This document shows positions 8,907 to 55,678 of a stretch of 64,000 nucleotides of DNA, in pieces. The stretch is from Kordia aestuariivivens (GTDB lineage: Bacteria; Bacteroidota; Bacteroidia; Flavobacteriales; Flavobacteriaceae): positions 124,001 to 188,000 of the forward strand of contig NZ_JACGWS010000002.1 of assembly GCF_014397005.1 (NCBI RefSeq). Reading direction: 5' to 3'. Position 1 is the stretch's first letter. The number at the start of each line of letters is the position of its first letter. Below the pieces are notes generated by a model, which saw only the letters and a program-made list of their open reading frames with translations, was not told where the DNA came from and made no database searches. A program made the translations under genes and the position numbers.

Positions 8907-9335
8907 TTAAAGTACAATCTTCAATGCAATATCTGCATCTTTTACCGTAAACTTAGAAGGCCCGAATTCTGGTGGTCCATAGCTTAATTGGTTGTTTGAC
9001 GTTCCGTAATCTTCTTTTGGCATTCCTGAAGGTTCAAAATCCATTTGACCGTTGTCATTTTCGTCGTGTACACATGTAATTGCATATTCTCCTTTTGGAA
9101 CATTTGTAAAAGTTACTGTCACTTTATTTTCTTCAATTTTGCTTCCTACGGCTTGTAAAGGTTGTCTTTTCATAAAAGTATCTTCTGTATACAAAGCAAA
9201 TAATACCTTTCCTTTGTTGTTCTTTACCTTATCTACAGTAACTGTGATGGTAACTCCTTCTGTAGTTGTGTTTTTAGTTTGCGCTGTTGCGAATACACTT
9301 GAGATTAAAATGGCGATTAAAAGTAAATTTTTCAT
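8907..9335 (-). CDS. DUF2141 secreted protein
   Basis: A 142-residue protein with a signal peptide ending ISSVFATAQ. The body matches DUF2141: ITVTVDKVKNNKGKVLFALY, PKGEYAITCVHDENDNGQMDFEPSGMP. The HDENDNGxxD acidic loop is the family hallmark and may bind calcium. It is a periplasmic or outer-membrane-associated beta-sandwich of unknown role, transcribed alone. Confidence 0.88.
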   Translation of the reverse strand: MKNLLLIAILISSVFATAQTKNTTTEGVTITVTVDKVKNNKGKVLFALYTEDTFMKRQPLQAVGSKIEENKVTVTFTNVPKGEYAITCVHDENDNGQMDFEPSGMPKEDYGTSNNQLSYGPPEFGPSKFTVKDADIALKIVL

Positions 9336-9626
9336 AATGTGATTGTTTATTGATGAATGTTAGATTTTTGTTTTGTAACTGTTTGATGATTCAAAAGTCT
9401 ACATAAAATCAAAAAGCACACAAAAAAAGATACCTAACTGTAATTTTTGGAGGATGAATTGTAGTTTTCGGGAACCTTTTCAAAAAACAACACGTCTATA
9501 TAGACAGCAAAGAGTTTGAAACTTTAACGAATTGGATTACCGATACTTTTTCGTTCACATTGTTATTTTCAATTTTGTGAAGTTGTTGCCATCAAACTTT
9601 AGTTAGTTTAATTGTTTAGGTTAAGC
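9336..9626. other. Gene-poor spacer with a coding-like remnant
   Basis: No complete gene. On the plus strand, 9458-9580 is an open frame of about 40 codons without a start. Its composition looks protein-like (VYIDSKEFETLTNWI), and an in-frame stop lies directly upstream. It may be a decayed gene fragment. Nothing else is recognised here. Confidence 0.35.
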
Positions 9627-9798
9627 ACAACTCAATTTTGAAAAGTCTGATAAGACGCATTCAAAATGGTAAGTTGTACAAACTCCACTGAAAAGAGGAG
9701 TCAATTTTCATACACTACAAAATTTCATTACCATGGATCTTTCTATAGTAGTTGTATGAAGATGAGAAGCGAACTTCGGTTCGCTTTTCTTCTTTTTT
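9627..9798 (+). ncRNA. Candidate structured small RNA with UUCG terminator
   Basis: Four consecutive folds, all on the plus strand. Fold 1 is a long hairpin: 9627-9632 with 9672-9677, then 9635-9642 with 9660-9667 (8 perfect pairs), then GTCT-gata-AGAC at 9645-9656. Fold 2 is ACTCC/GGAGT (9682-9686 with 9697-9701). Fold 3 is an 11-bp stem with one bulge (9708-9718 with 9748-9759) and a 29-base loop. Fold 4 is a GC-rich terminator with a UUCG loop (9767-9786) and a T-rich tail. No open frame occupies it. Size and setting suit a flavobacterial RNA such as 6S-Flavo or Flavo-1, but I cannot confirm the family. Confidence 0.55.
9767..9798 (+). terminator. UUCG-loop terminator of the candidate RNA
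   Basis: AAGCGAAC-TTCG-GTTCGCTT followed by TTCTTCTTTTTT. The exceptionally stable cUUCGg tetraloop is closed by C-G. Confidence 0.85.
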
Positions 9799-9890
9799 CA
9801 CTTTTAAAACGACTACATAAATGCTAATTAGTCGTTATTTATAAATCGCGATAATCATCAATTTTTTGTCTTCTTTGTTCTAAATACCTT

Positions 9891-9898
9891 TACTTTTG
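9891..9898 (+). promoter_or_regulatory. Candidate -7 promoter element before the GH113-like gene
   Basis: TACTTTTG fits TAnnTTTG. A TTG at 9866-9868 lies 22 bases upstream, close to the usual spacing. The predicted start is near 9905, just before the hairpin at 9925-9952. Confidence 0.4.
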
Positions 9899-9924
9899 AT
9901 TAATTATTTAAAATAAGGAATTAT

Positions 9925-9952
9925 AAAAGCGAATTTCGGTTCGTTTTTTTTT
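9925..9952 (+). terminator. Terminator-like hairpin in the GH113-like leader
   Basis: AAAGCGAA-TTTCGG-TTCGTTTTTTT with nine T residues. It is a near copy of the terminator at 9767-9798. It lies between the candidate promoter and the next gene on the same strand, so it could act as an attenuator or end a second very short RNA. Confidence 0.6.
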
Positions 9953-10137
9953 ACAACGTTTTGCTAAACGTAAAAGCATCCTCATACTTGTTAAGTTGCT
10001 TCATAATAGTCTCTTTTTTTAGTGAAATTGAAGATGTTCATTTGTTTATATATGGAAAGACAGCAGAAGTAGCTGAATTCAATTCCTTTTTTTATATTTT
10101 TAAAGCTATTACCGTCATTGTAAACTTTCAAAACTGT

Positions 10138-11517
10138 ATGATCAATAGAATAAAGATAAAAACATCAATATTAAAACGCTTTTTTTGGTTCTATAGCATT
10201 ACGGTTCTTGCTGTATTGGTCTTCTTGTTTTTGTTAATTCTACATAAAAGAGATTATGTAATAGTTGAAGCAGTTGCGTTTTTTACAGACATTCTAGACA
10301 ATTTATTGACGAGTCCAATATTGTATATCATCTCGTTGATTCCTTATCTACTGTTCTTATTAGTGAAGAGTATAATACGCAATTACAAACAGCATAAAAT
10401 GAAAGGCTTATTAATAGGTGTTTTTTTAAAAATAATGGTTCCTGTTGCAGTTATTTTCATAGGAAATAAAGCGTTGCAAAACTATCGACTCTCAGAAGAA
10501 GTAAACTATACTTGGAATACGAGCATAGAAAATAATCTTGCCAAAATAAACAATTACTACACACTCGATAAGAAGCAGCGAGGTATTCATGTATTTAACA
10601 TAGGAGGAAACTTAGAAGACATTGAACTCCTTAAGACAAATAACTTTGAATGGATTACCATAACACCATTCATAGATCAGGATGAATACAACAAACCAAT
10701 ATTGCGATTAATTTCTGATGAAAACTATACGAGAAGACTAAAATATTACAAAAAAATAAAAACTGCATGCGACACGTTTGGGATAAAAATAATGCTCAAA
10801 CCTCATATTTGGCTCTCCGAAATGGAAGACGGAAAATGGCGATCTGATATTGAAATGGAAACTGAAAACGACTGGAATATGTGGTTTAAAAATTACAGTC
10901 AAATCATCTTAAAATACGCCGAACTCGCACAAGAATTAAAGTTAGAACAATTCTGTATCGGGACAGAATTAGAAACGACTGTCTATAAAAAACCTGAACA
11001 GTGGAACGTTTTAATACAACAGATTAAGAAAGTATATACAGGAAAACTAACCTATGCAGCCAATTGGTACAATGAGTATGAAGCAGTTCCTTTTTGGGAT
11101 CAACTAGATTATATAGGTATTCAGGCGTACTTTCCGTTAAGCGCATCGGGCAATCCAACGCTTGAGGAACTAGAAAAAAACTGGAAAAAACACATAGAAG
11201 ACATCGCATTTGTGAGTAAAAAGTTTAACAAACCTATACTCTTTACAGAATTGGGATATAAATCTATTGAAGGCACTTCTGAAAAGCCCTGGGAATGGAA
11301 TAGTGCTAAAAGTATCTATTCAAAAATTTCCAAAAAGGAACAATTACTCTGCTATCAAGCTTTTTTTAATACTATTTGGAAAGAATCTTGGTTTCATGGT
11401 ATTCATATTTGGGAATGGCAAGGGCGTGGTAAATCTGACGGCGCTAATACGAACTTTACGATTGAAGGCAAGCCCTCGCTTAATCTCATTGCAAAATATT
11501 TTAAAATAGAAGAGTAA
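10138..11517 (+). CDS. Membrane-anchored GH113-like glycoside hydrolase
   Basis: A 459-residue protein. Two or three N-terminal transmembrane helices (about residues 17-38, 58-80, 92-108) precede a TIM-barrel domain starting at RGIHVFNIGG. The barrel matches glycoside hydrolase family 113 (beta-mannanase-like). The probable acid/base is Glu277 in CIGTELE, the probable nucleophile is Glu371 in LFTELGYKS, and IHIWEW is the closing strand. It probably acts on glycans at the outer face of the inner membrane. An in-frame TTG lies at 9961, but the ATG at 10138 is preferred because the hydrophobic anchor follows it. The 11539 gene follows by 21 bases. Confidence 0.8.
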   Translation: MINRIKIKTSILKRFFWFYSITVLAVLVFLFLLILHKRDYVIVEAVAFFTDILDNLLTSPILYIISLIPYLLFLLVKSIIRNYKQHKMKGLLIGVFLKIMVPVAVIFIGNKALQNYRLSEEVNYTWNTSIENNLAKINNYYTLDKKQRGIHVFNIGGNLEDIELLKTNNFEWITITPFIDQDEYNKPILRLISDENYTRRLKYYKKIKTACDTFGIKIMLKPHIWLSEMEDGKWRSDIEMETENDWNMWFKNYSQIILKYAELAQELKLEQFCIGTELETTVYKKPEQWNVLIQQIKKVYTGKLTYAANWYNEYEAVPFWDQLDYIGIQAYFPLSASGNPTLEELEKNWKKHIEDIAFVSKKFNKPILFTELGYKSIEGTSEKPWEWNSAKSIYSKISKKEQLLCYQAFFNTIWKESWFHGIHIWEWQGRGKSDGANTNFTIEGKPSLNLIAKYFKIEE

Positions 11518-13567: not shown

Positions 13568-14203
13568 ATGAAATTAAAGTTTATTATAATTCTTACTCTT
13601 TTAACAACGTCCTTGGCATTTGGACAATTTGACGGATATAAAAGGAACGCTGACGGCAGTTATTCTGTAGGTGGTTGTTACGATGGATACAAAAGGAATG
13701 CTAATGGAAGTTATTCTGTAGGTGGCGCTTTTGATGGCTATAAAAGAAATGCTGATGGAAGTTATTCTGTAGGTGGTGCTTATGACGGATATAAAAGAAA
13801 TGCTGATGGAAGTTATTCTGTAGGTGGCGCTTTTGATGGGTATAAAAAGAATGCTGATGGAAGTTATTCTGTAGGTGGTGCTTTTGATGGGTATAAAAGG
13901 AATGCTGATGGAAGTTATTCTGTAGGTGGTGCTTTTGATGGATACAAGAGAAATCCTGATGGAAGTTATTCTGTAGGTGGTGCTTATGACGGATACAAGA
14001 GAAATGCTGATGGAAGTTATTCTGTCGGTGGCGCTTATGACGGATACAAGAGAAATCCTGATGGAAGTTATTCTGTAGGTGGTGCTTATGACGGATACAA
14101 GAGAAATGCTGATGGAAGCTATTCTGTAGGTGGGGCTTATGACGGATACAAGAGAAATCCTGATGGAAGCTATTCAGTAGGTTGGGGAAAATGCAGAAAA
14201 TAA
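13568..14203 (+). CDS. Secreted 17-residue-repeat protein (beta-flower-like)
   Basis: A 211-residue protein: signal peptide (to about residue 20, LAFGQ), then 11 tandem copies of a 17-residue unit with consensus DGYKRNADGSYSVGGAF, the last ending GWGKCRK. At DNA level the unit is 51 bp and the copies are close to identical. Variation is mainly A/P at position 7 and F/Y at the end. Cysteines occur only in the first repeat (GGCY) and the tail. The DGxxRNxxGS pattern recalls the Bacteroidota 5-fold beta-flower proteins. Repeat number may vary between strains. Confidence 0.8.
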   Translation: MKLKFIIILTLLTTSLAFGQFDGYKRNADGSYSVGGCYDGYKRNANGSYSVGGAFDGYKRNADGSYSVGGAYDGYKRNADGSYSVGGAFDGYKKNADGSYSVGGAFDGYKRNADGSYSVGGAFDGYKRNPDGSYSVGGAYDGYKRNADGSYSVGGAYDGYKRNPDGSYSVGGAYDGYKRNADGSYSVGGAYDGYKRNPDGSYSVGWGKCRK

Positions 14204-39438: not shown

Positions 39439-39770
39439 AAATGCGTTTACTTATGAGTTGATAATAAAATCTCAATAGAATTCAAAACTACGATATTTCT
39501 ATTTTTTATGCAATCGGAATTTAGGTAATAAAGTTTAGTACAAACTCAAAAATTTTAATCATTGTAGTAATATGAAAATTAGTTCAACTAATAATTTTGA
39601 GTTCACCTTACTGGTTTCTAAAAATTGAGTTTCACTAATACAATTCAGCCTACAATTTTGACAATTGAGCATTTTCTTTTTTCTAAATCTTTCAATTCGC
39701 AAGAGATTTGTCCCATCATCAATCAACACTTCGACTTAGTTCAGTGTAAAAAAACAAAAAATAACATCCC
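39439..39770. other. Intergenic leader region of the TonB receptor
   Basis: 332 bases without a gene. It is AT-rich, with a TTAGTTCAACTAA-type inverted block near 39580-39595 and leader repeat copy 3 at its end. No convincing promoter box is seen. Confidence 0.5.
39719..39755 (+). repeat. Leader repeat, copy 3
   Basis: CAATCAACACTTCGACTTAG followed by TTCAGTGTAAAAAAAC, ending about 15 bases before the TonB receptor ATG. Same orientation as copies 1, 2 and 4 relative to the gene. Confidence 0.7.
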
Positions 39771-55202: not shown

Positions 55203-55678
55203 GAGATAGAGTTTTTATGTACAACGTGAAGCTACTCAGAATATTTGAATTCTAAAACAAGTGCTGGTCGTAATTTATAAATTTTAACTTATAATTAGTA
55301 GAATTATCAAAAATGCTAAATGTAAAATTTTAAATTAAAAAGTAGTTCTTTCACAACACACAACACACAACACACAACAAACAATACTTCGACTCACCTC
55401 AGAGTAAACAAATCAACAAAGAACAAAGAAATAAACAAAAAGCAAAGCAATCCAAAAGCGAAGTGCTCCAACAATCTAAGAAGTCTAACAATCTAACAAT
55501 AATTCCTTCACTCAAAAATAGTATCCATTCACTTAATGTAATGGTTCACTGACTCATTTCTTTTCCTTTTCGATTGATAATCAGACATCTTTGACCTGTG
55601 ATTAATCCAAAACAATAGTAAAGGCGGACGCTGAAAAGCCTAAAATAGAGTAAGTATTTAATTTTAAATTTTTTAATT
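55203..55678. other. Repeat-filled intergenic region
   Basis: 476 bases without a gene. It includes an AT core (55311-55352), a CACAACA heptamer array (55352-55379), a degenerate ACTTCGACTC..AGAGTAAAC block (55385-55408), AAAGCAAAGCAATCC-like text and AT-rich spacer with no clear promoter. Confidence 0.55.
55311..55379 (+). repeat. AT core with CACAACA heptamer array
   Basis: AATGCTAAATGTAAAATTTT core, then four copies of the 7-base unit CACAACA (55352-55379). Confidence 0.75.

Follow-up and report, generated by a model that had tools for sequence, protein, structure and literature searches.

A folded intergenic stretch at positions 9627-9798 of the window, that is, of the whole 64,000-nucleotide stretch of Kordia aestuariivivens DNA analysed here, is, judged from the sequence, best explained as part of a gene for a small RNA, namely its last two thirds on the 3′ side. 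We consider it probable that positions 9503-9798 encode a small RNA controlled by an ECF sigma factor and carrying an inserted copy of a dispersed repeat. With its start placed from an upstream promoter box and its end from an intrinsic terminator, the inferred noncoding RNA gene (9503..9798, +) would be about 295 nt long here and about 215 nt without the repeat.

The minimum free energy of 9627-9798 was -55.2, while its shuffles averaged -29.8 (sd 3.5); this gives a z score of -7.21, and 0 of 200 shuffles were as stable. The surrounding 9600-9820 folded with z -6.84 on the forward and -4.16 on the reverse strand, and 9505-9798 with z -5.37. All four helices that the first-pass annotation had written out were predicted where it had placed them, and we regard the fold as real. 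The first two belong to a repeat copy (9625..9702, +), which the repeat model R1 matched at 9619-9704 with 72.8 bits (E 9.3e-13). Repeat hairpin 1 (9627..9677, +) is formed by 9627-9632/9672-9677, the nested eight pairs 9635-9642/9660-9667 that had been claimed, and 9645-9648/9653-9656, and repeat hairpin 2 (9682..9701, +) by 9682-9686/9697-9701. Hairpin B of the noncoding RNA (9704..9763, +) is closed to 9763 by 9704-9714, with 11 outer pairs and an interrupted inner stem, and has UUACCAUG in its inner part. The intrinsic terminator (9764..9798, +) is predicted to fold as claimed, with a C(UUCG)G loop (stem 9764-9774/9779-9789, including GCGAAC/GUUCGC; UUCG at 9775-9778) and a U-rich tail.

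The setting is intergenic, with a DUF2141 gene (8907-9335, -) on the left and a GH113 gene (+) on the right, and the gap from the end of the former to the ATG of the latter at 10138 has the roughly 800 bases given earlier; in the mechanical ORF list the GH113 frame begins at TTG 9961. Two earlier statements had to be revised. One was that no ORF covers the stretch: a mechanical 53-aa ORF (9666-9827, +), the only one listed across the noncoding gene, does overlap it. Since this ORF starts within the inserted repeat, which is missing in the G008, G006 and G005 homologues, it cannot be an ancestral product. The other was the start at 9627, as the gene is expected to begin near 9503, about 120 bases earlier. 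The first-pass annotation had also overlooked that the first two hairpins are a repeat copy, for which model R1 gave at least 72 matches in this genome at E ≤ 0.1, truncated and array members included.

The sequence GGAAC-N17-CGTC is the general form of ECF-sigma promoters. An element of this type lies at 9471..9500 (+), with GGAAC at 9471-9475, a 17-nt spacer, CGTC at 9493-9496 and then TATA, and from its sequence we infer that it acts as a promoter. In the SM6 promoters of Flavobacterium psychrophilum, the CGT box has been ascribed to ECF sigma factors, and the present small RNA is not described in the part of that source consulted here (PMC9723704). Eleven Kordia genomes, including that of the window (G000), were scanned with the exact box pattern GGAACNTTN14CGTCTNTA, which occurred at 19 sites, as against 0 for the reversed control pattern. 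Nine of these sites stand before a lipoprotein/ECF-sigma operon, seven before the noncoding gene, two before another lipoprotein and one before another protein. The nine operon sites begin 56-64 nt upstream of a gene for a lipoprotein of about 353 aa, which is followed by an ECF sigma gene. The genome of the window has two exact sites (control 0), and the second starts 59 nt before the lipoprotein gene; the ECF sigma gene (G000:C5; L359:1747-2343) comes next, and then a gene whose 398-aa product has a membrane stretch read by eye. The sigma factor was identified by Pfam Sigma70_r2 and r4_2 and by NCBIfam TIGR02937, all above cut-off, and for the lipoprotein and the 398-aa protein nothing matched in Pfam or NCBIfam. 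When one mismatch was allowed, 49 sites were found in the 11 genomes versus 17 control sites, and these matches include chance ones; seven of the 30 extra sites were examined. In G003 such a box precedes the lipoprotein gene and the sigma gene, and in G008 it lies 219 nt upstream of the lipoprotein gene, the sigma gene being outside the examined locus. With these two sites counted, 11 of 11 genomes have the box ahead of the lipoprotein gene. The likely driver of the RNA is the sigma factor whose gene follows the one other exact box of this genome, co-occurrence being what ties this sigma factor to this box.

The noncoding gene stands behind the exact box in 7 of the 11 Kordia genomes (G000, G009, G006, G008, G005, G001 and G003), with pair-preserving changes in its hairpin and terminator, which bears out the small noncoding RNA gene with a UUCG terminator proposed at first pass. 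No such gene lies at an exact box in G004, G002, G010 and G007. The region beside the DUF2141 gene could be aligned with G008 and G009, the G006 homologue was found by a genus search among other neighbours, and the upstream GGAAC-N17-CGTC block is common to all four. Each of the seven homologues retains the box and a AUUUAGGUUA-like motif and has a hairpin or a terminator on its 3′ side, and reading and folding pointed to a noncoding character, with hairpins and a terminator-like 3′ end. In the 5′ region, at the conserved block GTTCACATTG (9553..9562, +), stands GTTCACATT, which is identical in G000, G009, G008 and G006 and missing from the G005, G001 and G003 homologues, so that it is found in 4 of 7 only. 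The conserved stretch TTAGTTAGTTTAATTGTTTAGGTTAAG (9599..9625, +; core ..TTTAGGTTA) carries a ATTTAGGTTA-like motif in 7 of 7 homologues, some of which differ by one or two substitutions. The seven also have in common a ..UUUAGGUUA..-like stretch that varies slightly among them.

Hairpin B and the terminator close the gene in G000, G008, G006 and G005; hairpin B is partly decayed in G009 and missing in G001 and G003. The outer stem reads UCAUACA/UGUAUGA in G000, UCAUAUA/UAUAUGA in G008 and UUGUACA/UGUACAA in G005, and thus its pairs change on both sides. The terminator stem GCGAAC/GUUCGC of G000 corresponds to GCGAGU/ACUCGC in G008 and G006; these pair changes in the noncoding gene were read by eye. 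The repeat is missing in the G008, G006 and G005 homologues, the best R1 score in the G005 locus being 9.2 bits. The genes of G003 and G001 end at a hairpin resembling repeat hairpin 2 (AACUCCGUUGCAAAGCGGAGUUUUUUU in G003), and a hairpin of this kind occurs in G009 and G003, with a weak remnant in G001. Model R1 scored 25.6 bits in the G001 locus (E 0.0012), 19.1 in G003 (E 0.029) and 13.1 in G009 (E 0.58). These remnants could reflect a shared ancient insertion with later loss.

Transcription probably begins near 9503, directed by the box at 9471-9500, and stops near 9798 at the UUCG terminator. The sigma factor would transcribe both its own operon and this RNA, and with this likely driver the two would form a small autoregulated regulon of the envelope-stress type, with the RNA as its noncoding arm. 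Sigma-E-dependent small RNAs suggest by analogy that base pairing in trans is its most likely mode of action, and the pairing region may be the ..UUUAGGUUA.. stretch or, within hairpin B, the UUACCAUG part. The stretch 9599-9625, part of which is paired in the minimum free energy fold, is a possible target-pairing region. The hairpins at 9625-9702 are probably not ancestral, a Flavobacteriaceae repeat having been inserted between the 5′ region and hairpin B. The insertion would lengthen the RNA by two stable hairpins, which may be neutral, stabilising or regulatory.

MicA and RybB are sigma-E-dependent small RNAs of enterobacteria. In the part of PMC11005410 consulted, FoxI and FoxJ of Fusobacterium nucleatum are described as sigma-E-dependent small RNAs acting on target mRNAs. 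The Kordia gene resembles these four in being a small noncoding gene with an ECF-type box shared with the sigma operon, stable hairpins and an intrinsic terminator, and differs in belonging to another phylum, in having a dispersed repeat inside the RNA and in that its sigma dependence is putative. If the proposed reading is right, marine Flavobacteriaceae have an ECF-sigma regulon with a noncoding arm, as do Proteobacteria and Fusobacteria, and a concrete gene, promoter box and sigma factor can be named.

Three other explanations of the folded stretch were weighed. It is unlikely that only the repeat and the terminator are real, as a mobile element beside a genus-typical terminator with no functional small RNA. 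When 9530-9960 was compared with its own genome by BLASTN, many of the 54 matches covered just the first hairpins and others just the terminator; near-identical terminator sequences occur elsewhere in this genome and in the genus, the repeat has its 72 matches, and a large share of the folding score comes from these two elements (with z -4.42 and -4.75 of their own). However, hairpin B by itself (9705-9763) beats its shuffles, with z -3.72 and 1 of 300 as stable, its pairs and those of the terminator have been preserved through changes, and the gene and its box are common to 7 of 11 species, partly with other neighbours. A leader or attenuator of GH113, in which the box would drive the GH113 mRNA and the terminator would be conditional, is quite improbable: the order DUF2141-noncoding stretch-GH113 is kept in G000 and G008, but other genes follow within 1.5 kb in G009, G006, G005, G001 and G003, the GH113 relative of G004 stands in another setting while the only exact box of that genome is at the sigma operon, and a second promoter-like and terminator-like stretch (9891-9950) intervenes in the window.

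The first-pass annotation had suggested a 6S-like or Flavo-1-like RNA from size and place, an idea to which we attach hardly any credence. Flavo-1 (RF01705) and 6S-Flavo (RF01685) are structured RNAs of Bacteroidetes according to the portion of PMC2864571 consulted, a description shared by the present RNA, which differs in having no Rfam model match. No Rfam 15 family reached its gathering threshold in the folded stretch, neither of the two was among the scattered low matches of 9360-10140 at E ≤ 10, and the fold is without a single long helix with a central bubble. Flavo-1 was also missing from two further Rfam listings at E ≤ 10. The best Rfam matches below threshold, to EF3314_EF3315 (21.3 bits against a gathering score of 100, E 0.016) and to JA01 (31.1 bits against 111, E 0.00099), were treated as chance. 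Across the whole window, the single Rfam 15 match at gathering was DUF805b (RF02914) at 55621-55656 (+).

The repeat inside the candidate ECF-sigma-type small RNA is abundant in a major family of marine bacteria; it is a structured element with strong covariation and has no Rfam 15 match at gathering. RNAalifold, applied to a MAFFT alignment of 42 copies made with no structural input, returned two hairpins with two-sided changes in 19 of 27 pairs. In the 30-pair structure that was named after this result, 95.5% of the cells were paired in the same alignment and 22 of 30 pairs had two-sided changes; 0 of 500 shuffles came as high on any of five measures, and sliding the partners by one column let the paired cells collapse to 46.3 and 44.6%. 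In rows fitted to model R1 itself, two-sided changes were found in 26 of 30 pairs for 71 rows from this genome (A2) and in 29 of 30 for 62 rows that, except for L113, all came from other genera (A3). The consensus runs TTTTAGTGAAACTCAATTTTGAAAAGTCT-GAA-AGACGCATTCAAAATTGTAAGTTGAACTAAT, followed by the second hairpin CCCGCT-GAAA-AGCGGG and then ATCT. Within hairpin 1 of the consensus, a GA/GA tandem mismatch and an AA/GNA internal loop are conserved, and in the copy at 9625-9702 A-U and C-G pairs replace the GA/GA. A second, diverged copy lies in the window at 39549..39641 (-; R1 59.3 bits, E 7.4e-10).

All R1 copy counts are lower bounds. At E ≤ 0.001 the complete Kordia genomes gave at least 24 (G003), 49 (G004) and 35 (G009) matches, and in a scan in which at most 22 candidates were scored per genome, matches were found in at least 40 of 199 sampled Flavobacteriaceae genomes and at least 39 of 198 genera, two of the 40 being Kordia. 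Among the matches listed, the exact core pattern was carried by Arenibacter, Flavivirga, Algibacter, Dokdonia, Lutibacter, Polaribacter, Seonamhaeicola and Kordia; the viral contigs scanned for this pattern gave 0. The Arenibacter copies, again among the matches listed, were seen by eye to have from about 20 to more than 100 nt more, with further hairpins ending in AGGTTTAATACCTTTTATT. Tandem arrays are common. One array of G009 (L308, G009:C1:3407313-3408098) has nine matches at a 91-nt period, the outermost partial. In G000, contigs end inside similar arrays (G000:C16:1-329 and G000:C10:108811-109054), so the assembly may break there. A repeat copy or array also stands directly behind the RNase P RNA gene in L072 (G000:C34), L113 (G002) and L309 (G003), this gene having been called by Rfam, by alignment and by reading, respectively.

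As to the nature of the repeat, one possible if doubtful reading is that of an undescribed two-hairpin family, present in roughly one fifth of the sampled Flavobacteriaceae genera with anything from one copy to tens of copies per genome. It would have spread, by means other than a Y1 transposase, into T-rich sites that in several lineages lie right behind terminators, and its structure would have been kept in place across genera. Here it would serve as an internal module of the ECF-sigma-controlled small RNA, and in two sister species possibly as its terminator. Such spread, together with possible reuse in an RNA gene, would clearly exemplify how a regulator can recruit a structured element that is mobile.

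It is also possible, if doubtful, that the repeat acts in cis at the 3′ ends of mRNAs, as an RNA element selected in place and not mobile; it could then be a backup terminator, protect the 3′ end or bind a protein. In this genome, the 40 nt upstream held a hairpin of ≤-8 kcal/mol in 27 of 49 first, full copies, one of the 27 (C10) being the second hairpin of a neighbouring copy, as compared with 6 of 49 at the control position further upstream and 0 of 49 downstream. By eye the upstream hairpins are mostly terminators whose T tract continues into the repeat, and the nearest left gene, by simple ORF calling, was directed at the repeat in 49 of the 69 matches that had such a gene, a count in which array members are included. 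The R1 scan of other genera gave an upstream hairpin in 8 of 23 copies versus 2 of 23 at the control. Same-place copies occur in different genera with stems that have diverged yet are mostly paired (L106/L127/L169, L122/L125/L116 and L118/L108). Moreover, G-U cells outnumber A-C cells in both A2 (70 to 52) and A3 (43 to 20; 113 to 72 together), which points mildly to folding of the + strand. In contrast, a mainly Arenibacter set of named genomes, chosen by the exact core pattern, had upstream hairpins in 11 of 96 copies versus 21 of 96 at the control position and a left gene in the same orientation in 45 and in the opposite one in 49, and a terminator-bound 3′ UTR element as a description for all genera failed on this set. 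Against a cis element also stand the many near-identical Arenibacter copies at unrelated places and the homologous genes that exist without a copy. The empty sites relied on are those of the window gene's homologues in G008, G006 and G005; an all-against-all locus comparison yielded few usable cases, and the rows it listed as empty were left out as not clear, several being tandem or degenerate.

Elements derived from IS200/IS605 and associated with palindromes have two or more hairpins, no terminal inverted repeats and T-rich insertion sites. That a Y1 (HUH) transposase moves the repeat as a non-autonomous element, in the manner of RAYT/REP or of such derivatives, is rather unlikely. The repeat shares with them the hairpin make-up and the T-rich sites, with T at -1 and -2 to the match start in 89 and 87 of 96 Arenibacter-type copies, and terminal inverted repeats were not seen by eye; there are tandem copies, 8 of 11 carrier genomes tested have Y1 genes, and a copy is present in 1 of 20 Y1 loci (L286). 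The other 19 loci are without one, however. The only Y1 gene found in this genome has a different palindrome and no copy in its 3237-base locus, and three copy-carrying genomes (G004, G009 and G233) have no Y1 match at E ≤ 1e-5, so that no partner transposase was found in them. The orientation bias relative to the replication arms, with the origin fitted and arrays collapsed by hand, is weak: 30 of 39 in G004 (permutation p 0.022), 17 of 22 in G009 (0.161) and 11 of 15 in G003 (0.562). With no Y1 partner for this genome, G004, G009 or G233, a RAYT/IS200 origin is not supported. REP elements (PMC3733652, in part) are likewise short, dispersed, intergenic, palindromic and often tandem. The Kordia repeat differs in its two covarying hairpins, its conserved internal-loop letters and its length of about 85 nt (more in Arenibacter), and it is not linked to the RAYT-like gene of the genome, which has another palindrome.

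Two further candidates were dropped. The sequence GTTGAAC resembles an attC box, and by eye the arms of the repeat do not match an attC site. A group IIC intron was considered for insertion behind terminators, and no intron domains were seen by eye. In the literature searched, no description of the repeat was found. The GUCCY-hairpin is listed in the portion of PMC2864571 consulted as a motif of Bacteroidetes and Proteobacteria without an Rfam number.

Some observations were made beside these elements. Around the only Y1 gene found in this genome, the palindrome CCCGATAGCGCGGACTTGTAGTCCGTGC was seen by eye in several copies (L069 at about 1240-2000 and at 2866-2895; G000:C5 near 27753). In the window, 9833-9950 (+) holds in succession a promoter-like TACTTTTG (9891-9898), a short leader and a terminator, with no gene between them. 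It resembles the region ahead of a short peptide gene in L051 and may be a remnant of such a gene. Further on, at 13568-14203 (+), a predicted protein consists almost entirely of a repeat of about 17 residues, DGYKRNADGSYSVGGAY.
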